A stretch of 36,953 bases of DNA from a virus: positions 1 to 36,953 of the IMG/VR virus record IMGVR_UViG_3300048838_000939; one strand, given 5' to 3'. Shown piece after piece: positions 3,996 to 20,531 of this stretch; the first letter of the stretch is position 1; each line of letters starts with the position of its first letter. Under the pieces are notes generated by a model, which searched no databases, was not told where the DNA came from, and saw only the letters and a list, made by a program, of their open reading frames with translations. Position numbers and translations under genes: made by a program.

Positions 3996-5456
3996 CTATG
4001 CCCCGGCCGGGCGGTTTGCCGCGCTGCGGGCTTCCAGGGTGGCTATCCGTTTCGCTTGTGCGTTGAGGTCTGCCAGCATCTTCTCCAGGGCCGCCACGGT
4101 GGCCCCGCCCAAGCCGGCGGTGGCTTTGGCAAACTGTTGCTGCAGCCGCTCAATCTCGGCTGCTGATGTGCCGTCATCCAGGCTGTTACCGATGCGGTCC
4201 AGGGCGGCCCCAACCGCCCGGGTCGGCGCGCGGTCAGCGGCAATGCCAAACTTGGCAGCAGCCCCGGCGGCGGATTGATTCAGACCGCTCTTGGCGGTGG
4301 CGATGCCGGCTTTCTCTGCTGCCTCATCTGCCTTGCGCTGCGCGTCGATTTCTGCCTGAATGTTTTCGGCGTTGTGCTGGTCGATGACTGCTTGGTTGCG
4401 CTTGGCGGCGGCAGCTTCGATTTCTTCGGTTTTGGCGGCCGCGCGTTCGTCGATGGTCTGCTTGTCGTTCGTGCCGATCTTTCGGGCGGTCGCATAGTCG
4501 CGGGAGGCTTTTTCAGCCGCTTCGATCTGCTTGCCGGCTTCCACGTCCATTTCGTTGGCTTTGTCAAAGTCAGCGCCAGGCATGTTGCGATAGGCAATCG
4601 CGTCTCTCATCGCCCTTTCCGCTAGGCCTGCGGCCTTGTTCGCCTCGTCGCGCTGTCTGGCCAGAGCTTGGTCGATCCGCTCTTTCTCAGCGTTGGCGTC
4701 GTCTTCGATCCGCTTTTTCTTGATCGCGTCAGGATCGGCACCGGAGGCGATGGCGGCCGCATCCTCGCGGTCTCGTTTGGCTGTTGCCAGTCTGGTTTCG
4801 GATGCCTCGATTTTATCCAGCGCGGCCAATTCAATCGCCAATTCCTTTGCCGCATCCGCCTCCTCTTTGAGCATTTTCCGGAATCCGGCTGCCAAGCGGC
4901 GAGCCGCCGCTTCCTCGTGCTGCCTCGCATGATTCGCCTCCGCGTCCGCAAGGGTTTGAAAAGACTCGCCGGCGTCCGCATTGGCCTGCACCAACTCAAC
5001 GTACGCCTCATAGAGATTGCGGAGTTGGCCGCCCAGGACTGCCAGAGCGGCACCGGCTGCCGCGCCGGCCGGGCCGGCGATGGCGAACCCTTGGGCAGCA
5101 GCGGACGATGCTTGCGCCACATTGTCCATGCCCGTGGCGATGGTTTCCAGGGTGGCCGCCATCTCGGGGTCGGCGTTGCGGAAATCCTCCGCGCTTTCCC
5201 GCACGGCCTTGCCGACCATCGCCGTTTTTTCGGCGATTTGTTGGAGCGAGCGAGCCCGCTCGATGTTGATCTGCTGGCGTTGGAGTTCCGCGGTTGCCGC
5301 GGTTTTCTGCTGTTCTTCCGCGGTCGCGGCGGCTTCCGTGCTTTCGCTTTGGGCCGCGGTCAGCCCCTTGACCGCTTCCGTCGTCTGGGTGACGCCGGCG
5401 GCCGCTTCCGCGGCACCGACGGTGGCCATCTGGACTTCGATTTTCTTCTCGGCCAT
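3996..5456 (-). CDS. Ala-rich coiled-coil tail protein, tape-measure candidate
   Basis: A 486-aa protein starting at the ATG of MAEKKIEVQM; a longer open frame upstream reads Arg-rich non-protein-like sequence and was rejected. It is dominated by Ala/Glu/Lys/Arg heptad-like helices (residues ~30-110 and ~150-400) with one hydrophobic Gly/Ala stretch at ~118-145. Long helix plus a hydrophobic patch is typical of tail tape measure proteins, which set tail length and may contact the membrane during DNA entry, but 486 aa is short for a siphovirus. It sits between the SGNH fibre (8-bp gap) and the hub. No lysozyme or peptidase domain is visible. The alternative is a coiled-coil fibre or baseplate component. 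Confidence 0.5.
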   Translation of the reverse strand: MAEKKIEVQMATVGAAEAAAGVTQTTEAVKGLTAAQSESTEAAATAEEQQKTAATAELQRQQINIERARSLQQIAEKTAMVGKAVRESAEDFRNADPEMAATLETIATGMDNVAQASSAAAQGFAIAGPAGAAAGAALAVLGGQLRNLYEAYVELVQANADAGESFQTLADAEANHARQHEEAAARRLAAGFRKMLKEEADAAKELAIELAALDKIEASETRLATAKRDREDAAAIASGADPDAIKKKRIEDDANAEKERIDQALARQRDEANKAAGLAERAMRDAIAYRNMPGADFDKANEMDVEAGKQIEAAEKASRDYATARKIGTNDKQTIDERAAAKTEEIEAAAAKRNQAVIDQHNAENIQAEIDAQRKADEAAEKAGIATAKSGLNQSAAGAAAKFGIAADRAPTRAVGAALDRIGNSLDDGTSAAEIERLQQQFAKATAGLGGATVAALEKMLADLNAQAKRIATLEARSAANRPAGA

Positions 5457-5464
5457 GGGAAATC

Positions 5465-7291
5465 TTAAGTTGGCATGGCGGCGGCGATCAGCCCGGCAAC
5501 GATCGCGTTGCCGTCGCCGTTGAGATGAATCGCGTCGCGCCACAGCGCGGCGTTGGCTCCGGTATGATTCGGGATGGCGGCGTCGATGTCCGCCGATAGT
5601 TCGAAATCACCGTTGGTGAGGCCGGCGCGGATCAGGCCGTTGAGGCTGTTGGCGGCCGCGAACCAAGTCGGATTGGATATGGACCAATCGGGAACGGCAA
5701 GCGTGGGAATCATGGCCAGGCAACCGGCGGCCCGCGCGGTATTGGTGGCCGCCAGCAATGAGGCATACACCGTGGCGGCCGATGCCCCGGCCATCAGATC
5801 GTTCACGCCGGCCCAACAACAATACAGGTTGAGCTTGCCCCCGACGTAGTTGCGGCCAACCTCGGTCGCCCACTGCCCCGCCATCGATGATGCCAGATGC
5901 CCGCTGCTGGCGGCATGTACGCCGATGCGGACGGCGGAGTCGAATCCGGAGACGGCCAGGATTTTATCCGGCCAGTGGTCGCGATAATACGAAAGGCTGT
6001 AAATGCTCTCCGACGTGGAATCGCCCTCTACCAGCAGATTGATAGGGCGACGGTCAAGCATGCCAATCGCCACCGTGGCGGCGATAACTTCGGCATCCGA
6101 GAGTCGCTTGTCGAACAACAACCACGAGTGGATTCGCCCGCGCAGTTGGAACGTCGATCCGAACGAAACCGCGGTCAAATCCACGGCGGTGGAATAGGTC
6201 GGCGGAGTGGTCGGTGTGGAGAGCATGCCGTCAACCCAACAGGCGCTCGCCGAGCCTCCGCCGAATGCCATCGCCACGGTATTGCGGTCCCGGTTCCGCA
6301 TCCAGGTCATCCGCGAACCGACCCCGTTGGCGGTATTCCCGGAGATGGTGTACGCGCCGGCGTTTTTGGCGAACAACGCGCCGGTGCCTCCGTTATTGGA
6401 GCCAAACATCGCGACATTGGCCAAATCCGCGCTGGCCACTTCAGCGAACCCTGAATAGGCGGCCGCATCGTGCGCGGAGCTGCCATCCACCAACAACGTA
6501 CCAGTCCGCAGGCCGGTTACGGTGTGACGAATGTTCGCGCTTCCCGTGGCAGGAAACACCAGACCGTACCCATCCCGCGTGAAGGTGCCGGTGAAGGTGC
6601 TCGCCGCCACCCCGCGGAATGAGAGCGGGGCGCCGGTGGCCTTTTGGGCATCCGTCCCATAGTAGCCGCCGTCCACCAGATTGGAAAGAATGCCGGCGGT
6701 TTCCAGGATCACCAGCGCCTTGGAGAGGCGGATGATGGATGCTGGCTCCGGCGTGACTCCGGCGGCCAGCAAGGCGGCCAGGTACGAGGCCGCGAGCGGG
6801 CTGAGACCATACCCGGACAGCAGATAGGGGCTTTCCTCATCCCACTCGTTTTCCGAGATCCGTTTCAGGCGGATGGTCGCGGAGGGTGCCGCATACGTCT
6901 GCCCGCGGTGGATGGTGACTCCGGTTCCGCCAACTACCGACCCCAGGCCAGTGGGCGAGGTCCGCAGGACCAGTTCGGTATTCGCCGGCCACGCGACATC
7001 GGCCTGCGGAGGGATGGTCACCGAGTACTCGGTAACGGTTTCCATCCGGACATACCGGTCCTTATCCGCCAGTTCAAACGTAACTGCCAACGCATCCTTC
7101 GGCACCACCGGCCGCGGAATACCGACCTCAGTACCACCCACTTGCAAACCCGTGCTGGTAATGCTCAGCGGCGTGGGGGTTCCATCGCCCAGGCAGATGG
7201 GGCGCGGGGTGCCGGAGAGCGGCCCGCCGGCCCCGGCTTGGAGCAGCCAGGGATACGTGTCTTTCGGTTTCCGTCCGGTGAGTGAACTCAT
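5465..7291 (-). CDS. Tail fibre/appendage with LamG-like and C-terminal SGNH-hydrolase domains
   Basis: A 608-aa protein in three parts. Residues ~1-150 are a beta-rich N-terminal region, probably the attachment to the tail. Residues ~200-410 resemble a concanavalin/LamG-like domain, ending in RGRIHSWLLFDKRLSDAEVI, a common closing motif of that fold. Residues ~417-608 are an SGNH/GDSL esterase: GDS with Ser425 (block I), GVND with Asn497 (block III) and DAIH with Asp586/His589 (block V). Such domains remove acetyl groups from polysaccharides, so the fibre probably deacetylates a capsule or other surface glycan during adsorption. The start codon follows a TTTTGAA triple repeat directly, and no Shine-Dalgarno sequence is evident. 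Host substrate is unknown. Confidence 0.75.
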   Translation of the reverse strand: MSSLTGRKPKDTYPWLLQAGAGGPLSGTPRPICLGDGTPTPLSITSTGLQVGGTEVGIPRPVVPKDALAVTFELADKDRYVRMETVTEYSVTIPPQADVAWPANTELVLRTSPTGLGSVVGGTGVTIHRGQTYAAPSATIRLKRISENEWDEESPYLLSGYGLSPLAASYLAALLAAGVTPEPASIIRLSKALVILETAGILSNLVDGGYYGTDAQKATGAPLSFRGVAASTFTGTFTRDGYGLVFPATGSANIRHTVTGLRTGTLLVDGSSAHDAAAYSGFAEVASADLANVAMFGSNNGGTGALFAKNAGAYTISGNTANGVGSRMTWMRNRDRNTVAMAFGGGSASACWVDGMLSTPTTPPTYSTAVDLTAVSFGSTFQLRGRIHSWLLFDKRLSDAEVIAATVAIGMLDRRPINLLVEGDSTSESIYSLSYYRDHWPDKILAVSGFDSAVRIGVHAASSGHLASSMAGQWATEVGRNYVGGKLNLYCCWAGVNDLMAGASAATVYASLLAATNTARAAGCLAMIPTLAVPDWSISNPTWFAAANSLNGLIRAGLTNGDFELSADIDAAIPNHTGANAALWRDAIHLNGDGNAIVAGLIAAAMPT

Positions 7292-12525: not shown

Positions 12526-13620
12526 TTAGCTGATGGTTCCCTTGCGCATCCCGATGGTGCTGGTGAGCTTGATCAGCTCATAGTGGCCCACGGCGAGGAT
12601 GTGGCGCTTTGCGCTCACCTGTTGGGAATAGACCTGGAATTGGCCCCCTCCCTGATTGGCACTGCCCATGGAGACGAAGCGCTTGATGTTGGAGAAATCC
12701 TCCGTATCCGCGCCGGAGAGCGCGGAGAACATCAGCACCTGGTTGCCCACCACCTGGGTGCGGGCCGTGCTGCTCGCCGTGTAGCGGGCCTTGGTCACCT
12801 GTACTTCATCCACCTGGAGGAACCCGGCGAGATGTTCCGGCGTGAGGCTGGCACTGCCAAAGCCGCCGGCGCTGGCCTGGAAGCGATGGGAGAGCAGCCG
12901 CTTGGACCAGCTTGTGTCACCGTAGCCCACCCGGTTCGGGCGGACTCCGGAGGCATCCGAGGCGGTGACCAGGTCAAGCAGGATGTCCTGATCCGGATCC
13001 TTGCCGGCCACCGCGCTCCACGTGTAGGCGGTGTTGGTGGCGGTGCCGGAGATCAGGGCCACGGCCCGGCGCAGGCTGTTGCGGCGGATCCGGCGGATCA
13101 GCTTCTGGGTGTACATTTCCTCCCAGTTCGGCATGCCGTCCAGTTCGTCCAGATCCAGGCAGATTTGCAGGCCGCGGTTGACGGTCTTGGCTTCCACCTT
13201 GCTGGAGACGTATTCCACGCTCTTGAAGTCCGCGCCGATGGGACGCTCGTCATCATCCGAGCTGAGGAATTCCTCGGCATTGTCCCACGCCGAATAGGAG
13301 AACCGGCGGGGCGTGGGCACCATGGGCGCGTAGAATTCCAGTTGCTTTTCCACGTCTTCGCTGTCCCGGAATCCCACCGCGTAGTTGGTGAGCGGTTCGT
13401 TGAAGAACGCCTGGTCGAGCAGGCTGGCGTTGGCTTCCGTCACCCGCTCATGGACGAAGCCGCCGGAGGCCGGGGCCTCGTAACTGGCGGTCTCGATCTC
13501 GCGGATGGTGTTGGCCATGATCTCGCGCGGCGAGTAAGCATTGCACACCACCTCCCGCTGCGGGCGGAAGATGGAAGCGGCGGCGAGCAGTACCATGCTC
13601 AGGGAATGTTTCAGTTTCAT
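12526..13620 (-). CDS. Major capsid protein
   Basis: A 364-aa protein in the Mu gpT position after the protease/scaffold and decoration genes. It has long HK97-like features: a spine-like helix (WEEMYTQKLIRRIRRNSLRRAVALISG), a beta-rich domain (VEYVSSKVEAKTVNRGLQICLDLDEL), and a C-terminal beta segment (QFQVYSQQVSAKRHILAVGHYELIKL). The first ~28 residues (MKLKHSLSMVLLAAASIF, then CNAYSPRE) are a hydrophobic signal-like leader, unusual for a capsid protein, whose DNA is nearly identical to the start of the decoration gene. An internal Met35 (13,518) would give a leaderless form. The leader may be removed by the prohead protease. Confidence 0.8.
   Translation of the reverse strand: MKLKHSLSMVLLAAASIFRPQREVVCNAYSPREIMANTIREIETASYEAPASGGFVHERVTEANASLLDQAFFNEPLTNYAVGFRDSEDVEKQLEFYAPMVPTPRRFSYSAWDNAEEFLSSDDDERPIGADFKSVEYVSSKVEAKTVNRGLQICLDLDELDGMPNWEEMYTQKLIRRIRRNSLRRAVALISGTATNTAYTWSAVAGKDPDQDILLDLVTASDASGVRPNRVGYGDTSWSKRLLSHRFQASAGGFGSASLTPEHLAGFLQVDEVQVTKARYTASSTARTQVVGNQVLMFSALSGADTEDFSNIKRFVSMGSANQGGGQFQVYSQQVSAKRHILAVGHYELIKLTSTIGMRKGTIS
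13582..13620. repeat. 39-bp leader repeat, copy 1 (start of capsid gene)
   Basis: The first 39 coding bases of the capsid gene match those of the decoration gene (14,137-14,175) at 37 of 39 positions, although the rest of the two genes is unrelated. They encode the hydrophobic leader MK(L/M)KH(S/T)LSMVLLA. Confidence 0.9.
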
Positions 13621-14462: not shown

Positions 14463-14490
14463 TTTCAGGTTTCAGGTTTCAGGTTTCAGG
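14463..14490. repeat. Four tandem TTTCAGG units
   Basis: Four perfect 7-bp units run across the stop codon of the protease/scaffold gene (14,486-14,488). I recall this as a dispersed repeat common in PVC-group genomes. It shows that such repeats here have settled exactly at a gene end. Confidence 0.85.
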
Positions 14491-15976
14491 CTGGTCGCTG
14501 CATGGCCTCGAACACTGGCTTGAGCGCGGGATCCCGTTTGGCGAGGTTCCATGCTTCGTGATAGGTCACGCCTTTCTTGGTCATGATCTCGGAGACCGCG
14601 TTGGCAATGGTTTCCCGGCGGGCCTTTTCATCGGTCACCGCGCCGCGGTTGCGGTCGATGTCCAGGGCGGAGGTATTGAGCACCGGCTTGATGGCGGCGA
14701 GGTTGTTGGCCTCGGCCTCGCGGTTCTCCCCGGTGAGGCGCGGCAGCCAGGCGGGGCGGTCAGCGGGGGTGATCCGGCCGGCGGCTTGGGCGGCGTCCAG
14801 CAGGGCGTTCGCATGGGCCTCGCGGGAGGCTTGCAGGTCGGCGGCCAGCGCGGTGGCGCGGGCGGTTTCCGCGGCCAGCGAGCAGGCGAGGTTCTCTTTC
14901 TCCGCTTTCTCGGCGGTGGCCTCGTTGACGGCGGCTTGGGTGGCGGCTTCCGCCGTTTCCATTTGCGCGGTGAGGCTGTCGAGCTTGGCGAGGATTTCCT
15001 CATCCGTGGCGGTCACGGGGAGGCCCAGTTTTTCAGTGATGACTTTGCGGTCCATATCGGTGGTGGTGGTTTGGTCTTGGTCTTCGTTTGGTGCTTGGTG
15101 CTTCGTGCTTGGAGCTTCCTCGGAGTTCGTGACTGGCTCGCTGGTCGGAATCCGGGGCGTGTTCGTCAAGCCGATTGACAACAGCCGGTCCGGCCGGAAC
15201 TCCGCACGCCCGGCGGGGGCGTCCCAGCGGGGGGATGGATAGACCCAGTAGCCCTCCTGGAGATTCTCGCGGCCCAGCGCGTTCCACTCCACTTCCGCCC
15301 ACAGGCCATCTGCGCGGGTTTGCAGGGTGATGATTTTGCCCAGCCGGCGGTGATCGGTGTAAAGGTCCGGGTTCTGGTCCGGGTGGCCGATGAACACCGG
15401 CGCGCCGCGGAACAGCCGGCCCAACCGGCCGCGCAGCGAATTGAACTCCGCCACAATGGCGTTGGACTCCGCCTCCGTGAAAATCTGCGGGCGGCTGGGT
15501 TTGCTGCCAGGGAAGGTGCCGAATGGGCTGACCTTGAGCCAGCCGGTATCCTCGCCGTCGATGGGCGCGTCCGCGGCGTTGGCCTCCGCGGCTTCGCGGG
15601 CGGGGGCGTCGTTGGCGTGGGTTTCGCGGTCGCGGGCTTTTATCTTGGCCGCGGTCGAATTGAGTTCGGCAAAGCTGCCGTATTGGAGGGTGGTCATGGG
15701 GTCGTCGTTGGTCACCACTTCCCGCTTGCCGGAGGTTCCCCGGCGGTATCCAATCGGCAGGGTCACCAGACCCAACCGGATGGCAAGCCAGAGCGACGCG
15801 CCGGCGATGCCAATCATTCCAGAGCCCAAACCCCAAACCAGCAACTGGATGCATCCACGCAAGCACTCGTCATTGCCGCCAGCGAGGACTTCTCCAAGGC
15901 AATTGCCGCTGCTGCCAAGCAGCATGAGGCAACACAGGGCGATGGCGATGAGGATCGGTTGTAAAATGCGTTTCAT
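14486..15976 (-). CDS. Prohead protease I fused to scaffold Z (Mu I/Z-like), with N-terminal membrane segment
   Basis: A 496-aa protein from the ATG of MKRILQP. Residues ~1-70 hold two hydrophobic segments (ILIAIALCCLMLLG, then CIQLLVWGLGSG to LVTLPIG). Residues ~130-290 match Mu protease I: GWLKVSPFGTFPGS, FRGAPVFIGHPD, ADGLWAEVEWNALG, YWVYPSPRWDAP and LLSIGLTNTPRIP. The C-terminal ~190 residues are a helical scaffold; an internal ATG at MDRKVITEKLGLPV could give a separate scaffold as Mu gene Z does. A dispersed repeat encodes the linker EEAPSTKHQAPNED between the two parts. Alternative starts: 16,141, overlapping the portal stop, and 15,697 (MTTLQYGS), which would remove the membrane segments. 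Confidence 0.75.
   Translation of the reverse strand: MKRILQPILIAIALCCLMLLGSSGNCLGEVLAGGNDECLRGCIQLLVWGLGSGMIGIAGASLWLAIRLGLVTLPIGYRRGTSGKREVVTNDDPMTTLQYGSFAELNSTAAKIKARDRETHANDAPAREAAEANAADAPIDGEDTGWLKVSPFGTFPGSKPSRPQIFTEAESNAIVAEFNSLRGRLGRLFRGAPVFIGHPDQNPDLYTDHRRLGKIITLQTRADGLWAEVEWNALGRENLQEGYWVYPSPRWDAPAGRAEFRPDRLLSIGLTNTPRIPTSEPVTNSEEAPSTKHQAPNEDQDQTTTTDMDRKVITEKLGLPVTATDEEILAKLDSLTAQMETAEAATQAAVNEATAEKAEKENLACSLAAETARATALAADLQASREAHANALLDAAQAAGRITPADRPAWLPRLTGENREAEANNLAAIKPVLNTSALDIDRNRGAVTDEKARRETIANAVSEIMTKKGVTYHEAWNLAKRDPALKPVFEAMQRPA
15085..15120. repeat. GTGCTTGG-type dispersed repeat inside the protease/scaffold gene
   Basis: A degenerate GGTGCTTGGTGCTTCGTGCTT run lies in frame and encodes the linker APSTKHQAP between the protease and scaffold halves. 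It is related to the run at about 12,416-12,437. I recall KHQAP-type peptides as the protein trace of a PVC-group dispersed repeat. Confidence 0.65.
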
Positions 15977-16096
15977 TTTGGAGTTGAAATGGGTGAGGAG
16001 CGTGGTATGGTGTGGGTCCTGACAGCACCCGCCCGGACGAAACCAATACATCCGTGGTGCGTAGATGGCGGCAGTGGCCGTGTTCATCTGTCTTGA

Positions 16097-16117
16097 GCCC
16101 GGCATCCTGTGCCGGGC
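16097..16117 (+). terminator. GCCCGGCA/TGCCGGGC hairpin with T-run, between portal and protease genes
   Basis: GCCCGGCA (16,097-16,104) pairs with TGCCGGGC (16,110-16,117) around TCCTG, followed by ATTTTT on the plus strand. That orientation would stop antisense (plus-strand) transcription; on the late strand the hairpin follows 17 bp after the portal stop and has an A-run before it, so it may act as a weak bidirectional terminator or processing site. The 158-bp gap otherwise holds only the possible 5' extension of the protease frame. Confidence 0.5.
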
Positions 16118-16133
16118 ATTTTTATTGGCCCGT

Positions 16134-18305
16134 TCAGTCATCTTCGTAGTGGGTGAGAATCCATGAGTTTTTCTCGTCTTCGCGCTTCACGAGAATGGCT
16201 AGGAACCTGCTTCCGCCGCGAGCATGGCTGAGAGTGCGCTTGGATTTGTCGATCGATCCGTCCGCACGGTAAGTCAGGGTGATCTTTCCCATGGCAAGTG
16301 TCTCAGCCATCCTGAAAACGTCGGCCTCATGTTTGGCAGCGATGTGCTGAATCCCTTCGCCGCGCTTCCAATCAGCGCGCTTCACGCCTGGGCGGCCCGA
16401 TGGAAGATCCACCTTTCCAAGGCCCTTTCTCCAGACTACGCCACGCACAGGAGATCCGCTTCTAAAGGCCCACGCCACGGCCTTCTTAGCCCTCTCCATG
16501 TTATCGCGAGGGGACAGGTACTCGTCGTCGTTACCGGGGATCCTGCCGAACACGTCGGTTTTGAATCCGGCGCTCTCGCCCTCCCGGCCGCGACCGTACT
16601 TGTATTGGTTCCCTCGGAATGGGTGCCCCTGAAAATCACCATTCGCCACCTCTTCATCCTCTCCCGCCAGGGCGGCGATGAACTGATCTTCCAGATAGGC
16701 TTCAAACCCGGCGGTTTCCATTAAGTCCGGCATGCGGGCGGAGATCTTCTTGAGCGCGGCCCGCATCGCGGCGTCATCGCCGGCGGCCATCGCGCTTTCC
16801 AGCGCCTGGCCCAGCGGCTTCATATCGCCTGAAAAGGCGGCGAGCCAGGCCGGCGGGTCATCAGTGGCGGAGTCGCCGTCCGCGTTGTCACCAACGCGCC
16901 CACGGGCAGGCCGGGCCGCTTTCATGAAATCCGCAAAACTCTTATAGTCGGCATTGGCAACCGTTTCCCCCTTGGCGCTCTTGGCGTCTTGGCGGTTCAG
17001 ATTACCACCGAGCCTATCAGATGCTTCTTTCGCCGCCGGAATCCCGGCCCGGTCCATCAGCGCGCTCATGCTAACCGATGCTCCCGCGCCGGCGAGGGCC
17101 AGCCCGGAGCGGATGACTTTTTCGGAATCCTCTTGGACCGGCACCACCAGTTCCACGCGGGCGAGCGGCTCGGTGCCGTGGCCGTAGTGCCATTCGATCA
17201 CCATCCGGGACACGTCCGCCAGCGTTTCGGAGATCATCTCCGCGTCATCGCGGCGGAGGATGTCGGTTTCCTTTTCCTGGAGGCTGGCCCCGGTGCCCTC
17301 GCCGCTGCCGCTGCTCATGCTGGACAGATCCGCGCCGCGATAGAGGGCGGCGAACTTGCGGTCCACCCGCTCGATCACGGCGGGCATGGGCATTGCCGAC
17401 GGGTTGCCCTGGGCCTGGACCAGCTTGATTGGCTCCGCGTGCGTGCCGTCGTCGCCATAGACCACCGCCACCCAGTCGTGGCCGAAGCTTTCCACGGCGG
17501 CGCGCATGGCCTCCGCCTCCGGGCTGCCCTTCTTGCCGGTGGTGCGGCCGAGCACGCCAGGGACCGAGAATTTCTCGGAAAAGATCAGCCAGTCATTGAA
17601 CGCGCTGCGTTTGGCCAGGTAGCCGATGCAGCAGGAAATCATCAGGCCATCCCCGGTGGTGACCATCCACTCGCCATCCGTTAGCAATTCGCCGCTTTGG
17701 GCGGATGGGCTTTTCAGATAGCGCAGGCTGCCGGTCCGGTTTTCGAACATCCACAGCGGGACGTACTCGAACGTGGCCCGCAGCGTGCCATCCGGCCGCG
17801 GCTCCCAGATGATATGATGGGCGGCGTAGCGGTAACTCACGGCCGTCATCATCTGCTTGACCAGCCGGCGGAATCCGCCGCGCTCGTTGCGGTCATAGCT
17901 ATTGATGCAGCGGACGTTGCGCCAGAACTCTTCGAGCGTTTCCTTGTGCGCCGCGGCGGCCGGGTCGGTGGGATCGGCTACCACCACCTGCATGTCGAGC
18001 TGCGAGACGTCCTTTTCCCGCTTGGGTTTGACCGAGGCGATCACATCATCCCGCTCCGCGATTTTCTCCCACAACAGGACCGCCTCGACCAGGTAGCCAT
18101 GGTCGAATGCTTCCAGCACGCGCGAGAGCATGTCCGGGGTGAGCTGGCGCAGCGGGTTCCATTTGTTCTGCCGCACGGTCCGCAACGCCTCCGCGCTGGT
18201 CACCAGCGGACTGGTGCCAGCCGCCGGGGGGGCGGTGTTGTGCTTGGATCGTCTGCGGGCTGCCATGTGGGTGGATGTTGGGGTGGTTTCCGGACCGGCG
18301 CTCAC
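16134..18305 (-). CDS. Portal protein (DUF935, Mu gp29-like) fused to a C-terminal BECR-type nuclease domain
   Basis: A 723-aa protein. Residues ~40-430 are a DUF935 portal: WNPLRQLTPDMLSRVLEAFD, then VSYRYAAHHIIWEPRPDG, YVPLWMFENRTG, DWLIFSEKFSVPGVLGRTTG and ETDILRRDDAEMI. Residues ~480-550 are helical. The motif GHPFRGNQYKYG (~560-571) is a known linker in phage head proteins. Residues ~587-723 fit the phage-barnase-EndoU-ColicinE5/D-RelE-like nuclease pattern: VRGVVWRKGLGKVDLPSGRPG, then GIQHIAAKH (~651-659) and the end SWILTHYE. Most portals end near 500 aa. GTG start at 18,305 overlaps an upstream small gene's stop; an ATG at 18,266 is the alternative. A 34-bp dispersed repeat lies in frame (NRQDAKSAKG). 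Confidence 0.75.
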   Translation of the reverse strand: MSAGPETTPTSTHMAARRRSKHNTAPPAAGTSPLVTSAEALRTVRQNKWNPLRQLTPDMLSRVLEAFDHGYLVEAVLLWEKIAERDDVIASVKPKREKDVSQLDMQVVVADPTDPAAAAHKETLEEFWRNVRCINSYDRNERGGFRRLVKQMMTAVSYRYAAHHIIWEPRPDGTLRATFEYVPLWMFENRTGSLRYLKSPSAQSGELLTDGEWMVTTGDGLMISCCIGYLAKRSAFNDWLIFSEKFSVPGVLGRTTGKKGSPEAEAMRAAVESFGHDWVAVVYGDDGTHAEPIKLVQAQGNPSAMPMPAVIERVDRKFAALYRGADLSSMSSGSGEGTGASLQEKETDILRRDDAEMISETLADVSRMVIEWHYGHGTEPLARVELVVPVQEDSEKVIRSGLALAGAGASVSMSALMDRAGIPAAKEASDRLGGNLNRQDAKSAKGETVANADYKSFADFMKAARPARGRVGDNADGDSATDDPPAWLAAFSGDMKPLGQALESAMAAGDDAAMRAALKKISARMPDLMETAGFEAYLEDQFIAALAGEDEEVANGDFQGHPFRGNQYKYGRGREGESAGFKTDVFGRIPGNDDEYLSPRDNMERAKKAVAWAFRSGSPVRGVVWRKGLGKVDLPSGRPGVKRADWKRGEGIQHIAAKHEADVFRMAETLAMGKITLTYRADGSIDKSKRTLSHARGGSRFLAILVKREDEKNSWILTHYEDD
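16967..17000. repeat. 34-bp dispersed repeat inside the portal gene
   Basis: Reverse complement of 14,201-14,234 with two mismatches. It is in frame and encodes NRQDAKSAKG within a surface-like linker between the portal core and the helical C-terminal part. Confidence 0.85.
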
Positions 18306-18536: not shown

Positions 18537-20531
18537 TCAGCCCGCGTATCTCCGCGCCCGCGGGATCGAAAATGTCTCAGGTTCCACCGGAGCCGCGGCC
18601 ACCGCGTGCCCGCCCACCATTTCAGCCAGGGCGGAGTAGGCGTCGGCCAACAGGAGGTGGTTTTCGCAACCGTCCACGAAATCGAGCGCCTCGCCGCCAT
18701 CCTTGGATGCTCGCTTCGAGCCGGTGATCAGATGGCTGTCCAGCGTCTCCACGATGGGCGGGCTGCCGGCCTCGCGCCGCGGCAGCCGCATCACCGGCTC
18801 TTCCAACAGCGTGCCGGCCACCACCCGGATCACGTTTTCAGCGGGCGTGAGGAACTCATTGACCGCCCGCAGAATGCTCTCGAACCGGTTGCACTGGATG
18901 ACCGGATAGAACCGGTTGTAGCCGCCCTGGGGATCGATCCCCAGCTTGTGGACCATGCCCGCGCCCTGTTTGAGGGCGAACTCCACCACAAAGCACCGCA
19001 GGCCGGTCCACCGTTTGTTGGCACCGTCCCAAGTAAGTCCGCCCGGGAATTGCAGCCGCGCCTCGGCCGGTCGGCCATTGAACGCGGCCCAGTCGATGCC
19101 ATCCAGTCCGTTCAGCCGGTAGCACAGCGCGCGCGCCTCATCCACCGCCGGGTTGGCGTCGATGGCCAGGCATGAGAGGCCAAGCTTGTGAAACAGCGCC
19201 TCCGCCCGCGCGACCATTTGGGAAAGCGGGATTTGTTCGGCCCAATTGACGTGTTTGCGATCCTCTCCGAACACGTCGCGGGACACGAACCAGCAGCGGT
19301 TGCCGGTGTCCAGTCCGCCGAAGCGGGGCACGGCGACCGGGGCCATGGATAGATCAAACGGGGTTTCGGTGGACCGTGCGCGCAGGATCACTTCCGGGTT
19401 GATCGCCTGCTCGGTGTTGCTCGGCAGCGCCATCACATCACACCTGAAAACAGTCATCATCTCCGGATCCTTGATCGCGTCCTGCCAGCGGGAGACAAAC
19501 TGCTGCACCGGCATCGCCGCGATGCAAAACTGAGAGATCCGGAAACTCCACCGCCGCAGCTTGATCCGCTCAGGCTTCAGATGGACCAGGAGCGGCTTGG
19601 TCCTGTCGATCACCGCGCCCGTCTCCGGGTCCGCGAAGTAATAGACTGCTCCCGGCTCATAGGCCCACGCCCGGCCCGCGTCATCGCGGAACTCCCCGGC
19701 CGTGGTCAGCTTGGGGTCGCCCGGCCGCGGCTCGCCGTCCACCGCCAACCGGCACACTTGCGGCCAGTTCTCTTCCAGGTTGAGCGGCTTCGCGCCGCCG
19801 GTCTCGAACACGAAGATTCCCTGGCTGCCATCCTCCCAACATTTCTGTTGGCCGGCGGCGTGCGTCCGCTGCGTGCCGATGGATGACCGCAGCCGCAGGT
19901 CGGAGGCCGTCATGCGGCCCGTGAGATATTTCGAGCGCTTGGCCGGGATGTCATCCTTTTCGTCCTCCATCGCCACATCCATGGAAAACGAGGTGGGGAT
20001 CTTGCCCATGCCGCGGATCATGCCCTGCGCCTTGCGCCGGCCATCGCTCACCTGGAACGCGCCCTTGCGATTGACGCTCCGGCCGCGTTTGTCATCCATC
20101 TTGCCCACCTGCATCAACGGCCCCAGCCAATCGATCTGCTCGATCACATCGGGACGCAGCTTGGTATCGACGATGCCCTCGACCAGGTCATCGTCCGGCA
20201 GATAGTAGCCCCAGTTGCGGAACAGGCAGCCCGTGACATAGACGCCGAAATTGAGCGCAAGGATCGTCTTGCCAAACTGCGCGCCGCCGCAAATGTCAAT
20301 GGTGGCGTCCGGCAGCGGCTGGCCGGTGTGGCTCCCCAGCACCAGGTCGAACACCTCCACGATCGGAATCAGCGCCTCGCGGCCGGCGAGGGAATAATGG
20401 ACATACGACCCGCCCGGGGTCTTAACCATGGCGTACTTTTCCAGGAACTCGCGAAAGCTCGCCACGCTCGGCACGTGGCCGTGGTCCGGCTCCGCCAGCA
20501 TCCCCGCGATTCTATCAAGCGCGCCCTTCAT
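18537..20531 (-). CDS. Large terminase (packaging ATPase/nuclease, Mu gp28/GpA-like)
   Basis: A 664-aa protein. The ATPase part shows a Walker A-like loop GGAQFGKT (residues ~83-90) after LPDATIDIC and a Walker B-like segment FSMDVAMEDEKDDI near 180-195. The typical GYYLPDDDLVEGIVDTKLRP segment lies between them. The nuclease half contains VPRFGGLDTGNRCWFVSRD (~400) and CLAIDANPAVDEARAL (~455) with the acidic residues expected of an RNase H-like fold. It cuts and pumps DNA into the prohead. Its start overlaps the stop of the DUF3486 gene (ATGA at 20,528-20,531). Mu-like phages package headfuls from near one end of the inserted copy. Confidence 0.8.
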   Translation of the reverse strand: MKGALDRIAGMLAEPDHGHVPSVASFREFLEKYAMVKTPGGSYVHYSLAGREALIPIVEVFDLVLGSHTGQPLPDATIDICGGAQFGKTILALNFGVYVTGCLFRNWGYYLPDDDLVEGIVDTKLRPDVIEQIDWLGPLMQVGKMDDKRGRSVNRKGAFQVSDGRRKAQGMIRGMGKIPTSFSMDVAMEDEKDDIPAKRSKYLTGRMTASDLRLRSSIGTQRTHAAGQQKCWEDGSQGIFVFETGGAKPLNLEENWPQVCRLAVDGEPRPGDPKLTTAGEFRDDAGRAWAYEPGAVYYFADPETGAVIDRTKPLLVHLKPERIKLRRWSFRISQFCIAAMPVQQFVSRWQDAIKDPEMMTVFRCDVMALPSNTEQAINPEVILRARSTETPFDLSMAPVAVPRFGGLDTGNRCWFVSRDVFGEDRKHVNWAEQIPLSQMVARAEALFHKLGLSCLAIDANPAVDEARALCYRLNGLDGIDWAAFNGRPAEARLQFPGGLTWDGANKRWTGLRCFVVEFALKQGAGMVHKLGIDPQGGYNRFYPVIQCNRFESILRAVNEFLTPAENVIRVVAGTLLEEPVMRLPRREAGSPPIVETLDSHLITGSKRASKDGGEALDFVDGCENHLLLADAYSALAEMVGGHAVAAAPVEPETFSIPRARRYAG

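Follow-up and report, generated by a model that had tools for sequence, protein, structure and literature searches.

In CdiA, a short conserved peptide, VENN, marks the point where the conserved carrier gives way to an exchangeable toxin domain. Among the PBECR domains, which include the Pfam family PBECR1 (PF18809), the simplest architectures are those in which a PBECR is joined to a MuF or a portal domain, larger PBECR proteins have been suggested to be packaged and injected, and the C terminus of Mu's own MuF (gp30) has been described as an inactive PBECR (Iyer et al. 2017, PMC5512222). In MuF polymorphic toxins the toxin domain is C-terminal and variable, whereas the head protein that carries it is conserved and belongs to the packaging module (PMC5576092), and the internal proteins of phage T4 are diverse anti-host proteins that share only a short capsid targeting sequence (PMC3012670). 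Here, we report the analysis of a viral record of 36,953 nt (IMGVR_UViG_3300048838_000939, in full, hereafter the window), in which a Mu-type portal, the ring protein that gives passage to the phage DNA, carries a PBECR1 domain behind a conserved junction motif.

The window protein has the Pfam family, the helix and four strands, the His and Thr/Ser pair and the portal fusion in common with the PBECR–portal fusions published in 2017, and its fusion is therefore not new in kind (PMC5512222). It differs from them by the conserved junction motif, which goes unmentioned in the main text of that paper (0 occurrences of ‘gnq’). As in the MuF toxins, a variable C-terminal domain follows a conserved head protein of the packaging module; here, however, the carrier is the portal, and the record holds no detectable MuF domain (PMC5576092). 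The motif resembles the T4 capsid targeting sequence (PMC3012670) in preceding diverse domains, often near the N terminus, but it also lies inside multi-domain proteins and, rarely, at the C terminus; it is common to unrelated effector and head proteins, which may be packaged in heads, and a targeting role may be proposed by analogy. Like VENN, it stands at the border between carrier and swapped domain; in contrast to VENN, GHxF[RH]GNQ occurs in many copies per genome, also precedes stand-alone ORFs and was detected almost exclusively in phages. A domain of the type found in DarA, the antirestriction head protein of phage P1 (NCBIfam NF052326), occurs in the motif-bearing protein of Xanthomonas phage Rb1, but was not found in the window protein with Pfam or NCBIfam.

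A Mu-type portal with a C-terminal PBECR1 domain

The fusion protein is encoded in a Mu-like head module comprising, by Pfam, the portal, a PF10123 protease and a PF09956 cement protein (Table 1). The Portal_Mu profile matches the portal part over nearly its whole length (E 8e-46, profile positions 3–336 of 336), PHROGs matches are confined to that part, and NCBIfam gave no meaningful match to the protein. The earlier note had called this ORF a phage portal, with exactly the extent and length given in Table 1, and the strings it quoted, GHPFRGNQ (residues 560–567), LGKVDLPSGRPG, GIQHIAAKH and SWILTHYE, can all be read in the translation. A second possible start, an in-frame ATG at residue 14 (MAARRRSKHN, within 18264–18305), resembles the start of related portals and may be the one actually used. 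Phage Mu has a MuF slot between its portal and protease genes. In the window, the two ORFs overlap, so that the portal ORF runs straight into the Mu-type protease (16141–14486) with no MuF gene between them, and a search of the whole record for the MuF domain (PF04233) had no match even at E ≤ 1. The host is probably an Akkermansiaceae-type member of the Verrucomicrobia, as suggested by the portal relatives L138, L143 and L145, which come from Akkermansiaceae records.

Table 1 Features of the portal locus in the window.
Feature	Position (nt)	Strand	Basis or location
Portal–PBECR1 fusion ORF, 723 aa, GTG start	16134–18305	−	ORF and translation
Mu-type portal domain PF06074, residues 78–422	17040–18074	−	Pfam, 157.3 bits
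Junction motif GDFQGHPFRGNQY, residues 556–568 (GHPFRGNQ core, 16605–16628)	16602–16640	−	Sequence comparison
PBECR1 domain as modelled, residues 596–723 (Pfam match 625–722)	16137–16520	−	Pfam, alignment, model
Predicted catalytic His654 and Thr718	16344–16346; 16152–16154	−	Within PBECR1 domain
Mu-like head maturation protease PF10123, candidate processing enzyme	14486–16141	−	Pfam; directly downstream of portal
Phage cement protein PF09956	13678–14229	−	Pfam
Probable major capsid protein	12526–13620	−	Position only, no Pfam match
Probable terminase large subunit	18537–20531	−	Position only, no Pfam match

The C-terminal region matches PBECR1 above the curated cut-off (E 6.4e-7, 30.3 bits against 27.6). 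Run over the whole record, the profile hits this one place only (35.6 bits). It finds nothing in 14 control genomes, and its match here lies well beyond chance. In an alignment of the window protein with five homologues (six sequences), an LG pair, a Gly, His654, Lys658, His659 and Trp715 are invariant, and position 718 is Thr or Ser. The best of five models of residues 596–723 reaches a mean pLDDT of 82 (the others 81.6, 76.0, 50.4 and 44.5, two of the five being poor). It consists of a helix (56–77) and four strands (79–84, 90–101, 104–112 and 119–127 in the model), with His654 in the helix and Thr718 in the last strand, the arrangement given for PBECR domains (Iyer et al. 2017, PMC5512222).

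The solved structures nearest to the model are BrnT (Z 5.5), a CDI toxin (Z 5.0; Foldseek probability 0.90, E 0.033) and HigB, RelE and ParE (about Z 4). These scores against BECR toxins are low to moderate, up to Z 5.5; the toxin class heads the list, with NTF2-like folds lower down, and a minor capsid protein and polyvalent ADP-ribosyltransferase proteins are among the matches in a viral structure library. The catalytic residues, the predicted fold and the sequence all point to PBECR1, and ribonuclease activity is predicted for the domain. The BECR-type nuclease that the earlier note had placed at the portal C terminus thus holds up in its family (the last roughly 100 residues), in a BECR-like topology with toxins as nearest, if weakly scoring, neighbours, and in the conservation of the catalytic positions among homologues; its remark that such nucleases are fused to phage head proteins agrees with published PBECR–portal fusions (PMC5512222). 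Neither tblastn in cultured phages nor a single-sequence search in viral contigs found relatives of the domain, a three-sequence alignment used as query recovered only three, and the six-sequence alignment is too diverse to serve as a query.

Domain exchange and conservation at the portal junction

Relatives of the portal were collected from viral and Verrucomicrobial genome contigs and share 40–87% identity with it over residues 40–430. Behind the junction, PBECR1 is found in the window and L145, and PBECR3 in L138 (above cut-off) and L143 (below cut-off). The portal core of L003 is 87% identical to that of the window, with no such C-terminal domain, no motif and no separate gene between portal and protease; the L004 portal likewise has no such domain. 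Since relatives carry PBECR1, PBECR3 or neither, the domain is exchanged and is dispensable for the portal. The motif in turn is not required for the fusion, because L002 has PBECR1 on an 81%-identical portal without it, and L214, from the order-level genome set around L145, has PBECR1 after a different linker, HDQRGRFTHAGG (QRGRFT). No copy of the motif was found in the records of L002 and L003.

The alternative junction of L214 (1201–1800), behind which PBECR1 lies, reads GNPYHDQRGRFTHAGGA; a second candidate linker, RD..GRF/W-T, was set aside, as its enrichment is too weak (31 in the fetched loci against 12–18 after shuffling). L004 has an ORF (5550–6365) between portal and protease, the slot where MuF sits in Mu, that resembles a patatin-like phospholipase, with GGGMPG and GTSAG read by eye.

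In the four motif-bearing portals the junction is an island of conservation between diverged flanks. Residues 550–566 of the window protein, around NGDxxGHPFRGNQ, are 88, 76 and 88% identical to those of L145, L138 and L143, against 31, 29 and 19% for the 115 residues before the junction and 36, 20 and 16% after it. One would not expect the best-conserved part of a region to be a passive linker. That GHPFRGNQ is a mere linker, as had been assumed when the domain was first noticed, is not supported by this conservation together with the recurrence of the motif elsewhere.

Recurrence and context of the junction motif

The consensus of the motif is φxKGDxxGHxF[RH]GNQ[WYHF], behind which glycine-rich sequence is common. 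Degenerate DNA patterns were run twice against IMG/VR, with at least 120 stretches returned each time, and the choice of patterns biases this sample. Across these viral loci, the looser pattern G[DE]xxGxx[FY]xGNx occurs in at least 379 copies, compared with 0 in three codon-shuffled controls. Among the matches listed, all 379 copies have the His, though the second DNA pattern left it free, and 377 have Arg or His after the Phe. A chance origin is ruled out by these counts and by the lack of any match to the reversed pattern in the listed genomes and records. The 26 viral records examined, which were chosen because they matched, all contain the motif, and none the reversed pattern; the highest counts per record are 25 (69 kb), 22 (67.6 kb) and 20 (121 kb).

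Of the 687 bacterial genomes sampled, three have the motif, and all three had seeded the search. Across 257 Gb of contigs from bacteria and archaea, 21 stretches match the bare 24-base pattern, and seven of these have the extended in-frame motif; the remaining ones fit our own estimate of about 15 chance matches. Codon entropy at the invariant residues is mostly near that of the surrounding genes (L027 being more uniform), which rules out a repeat at the DNA level; as synonymous codons mostly vary as they do in neighbouring genes, selection appears to act on the peptide. A search for the motif letters found no relevant paper in the open literature, subscription papers, preprints and supplements lying outside its scope, and within the open literature the motif looks undescribed.

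The motif stands between head proteins and effectors. The 84 segments before it match, in Pfam and PHROGs, XkdF and S78 head maturation proteases, MuF and portals among others; the 111 segments after it match, in Pfam, ART-PolyVal, zeta toxin, ADP-ribosylating toxins and GNAT among others, and further rifampin ADP-ribosyltransferase, DarA_C, the topoisomerase IB N-terminal domain and, once, MuF. Many flanking segments have no match, and ORFs with several motifs have effector domains on both sides. In single-motif ORFs among the matches listed, the motif lies within 45 aa of the first possible start in 70 of 130, internally in 59 and at the C terminus in 2. Beside the head protease, it lies close to the start of ORFs that stand alone; it also occurs internally, as in the window protein. 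It is not strictly an N-terminal tag, because it is C-terminal in L006 and stands behind PBECR1 in L130. In L006, this reversal of the usual place concerns two small ORFs (2209–2232 and 4458–4481). In L130 (58–1272), PBECR1 precedes the motif and a His-rich, helical-looking segment, SGSAVRASxxAKHAExxG, follows it; similar segments recur in L133, L140, L146 and phage Rb1 (L125).

Ten records that have an XkdF protease contain 63 motif copies in the 20 kb retrieved, every one of them on the strand of the protease, although the genes of a phage operon share one direction anyway. XkdF is found in 11 of the 26 motif-bearing records at E ≤ 0.001 (10 above cut-off), the protease family of the window itself (PF10123) is a different one, and no protease family is detectably common to these records; a single protease partner for the motif is thus not established. 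One array, in L230 (2987–19017), consists of ten consecutive motif-tagged ORFs after the head protease, nine of them without a Pfam match. One tagged ORF of this record shares its C-terminal domain with the XopAD effector family. Among cultured phages, the only clear carrier is Xanthomonas phage Rb1 (PQ569993), in an ‘internal head protein’ with InPase and DarA-type domains; a match in Sphingomonas phage Carli is not significant (E 8).

Proposed function and alternatives

Starting from the identity of the domain, its conserved catalytic pair, the conservation and recurrence of the junction, and its place between head proteins and effectors, we consider it rather probable that the portal bears a tagged PBECR1 domain whose junction motif acts as a head-cargo signal; ribonuclease activity, packaging, cleavage and injection are the parts of this reading that we infer. 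The PBECR1 endoribonuclease domain would ride into the virion on the C terminus of a Mu-like phage portal, with the junction peptide EEVANGDFQGHPFRGNQY holding or releasing it. At infection it would enter the host and cut RNA, which might be host or phage mRNA, or tRNA or crRNA. The motif would serve in capsid-cargo targeting, in processing by the head protease or in both, with effector domains swapped behind it. A joint model of the junction and the domain has a pLDDT of 37.

A simpler reading would make the motif a flexible linker or a recombination junction, comparable to VENN before CdiA toxins, with no part in targeting or processing. Its position at domain boundaries with swapped cargo and the glycine-rich sequence behind it fit such a reading, which we nevertheless judge improbable: the motif is far better conserved than either flank, in more than half of the single-motif ORFs listed it lies near the start of a stand-alone ORF where there is nothing to link, and its synonymous codons are for the most part as variable as those of nearby genes, so that the DNA itself is not conserved. 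It is also unlikely, in our view, that the domain is a structural or RNA/DNA-binding stand-in for the missing MuF and not an effector. The catalytic His and Thr are retained, and the domain switches between PBECR1 and PBECR3. L003, moreover, has neither the domain nor a gene between portal and protease, from which it follows that this type of phage does not need a PBECR domain. These points stand against the lack of a detectable MuF in the record, the position of the protease directly after the portal and the description of the PBECR of Mu gp30 as inactive (PMC5512222).

Swapping of C-terminal domains on a conserved carrier also recalls the MuF toxins known from temperate phages (PMC5576092), and the domain could accordingly be a prophage-borne polymorphic toxin aimed at competitors, with an immunity gene guarding lysogens. 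The carrier here is the portal and not MuF, however, and because the ORFs of portal and protease overlap, an immunity gene would not fit immediately after the toxin; we regard this reading as distinctly unlikely. Still harder to credit is action in the producing cell late in infection, where the domain would trim mRNA as T4 RegB does instead of being injected. RegB is a phage ribonuclease of the BECR fold that cleaves phage mRNA (PMC5512222), but a portal that is made late and built into the head would be a poor source of free cytoplasmic enzyme, and similar fusions, to proteases and to MuF, suggest a place inside the head.

Beyond the portal-borne nuclease as tagged head cargo, we tentatively suggest, at somewhat less than an even chance, that the motif is a general capsid-cargo signal of many uncultured tailed phages, which loads, and perhaps processes, arrays of injected anti-host proteins. 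The portal RNase of the window would then be one single-copy user of this signal, and the motif would read out the injected arsenal. If so, a short, testable sequence would flag phage proteins that are packed into the head and injected, many of them without a known domain. It would lead straight to new phage proteins for anti-defence and host takeover, and might offer a handle on head loading in phages other than T4.
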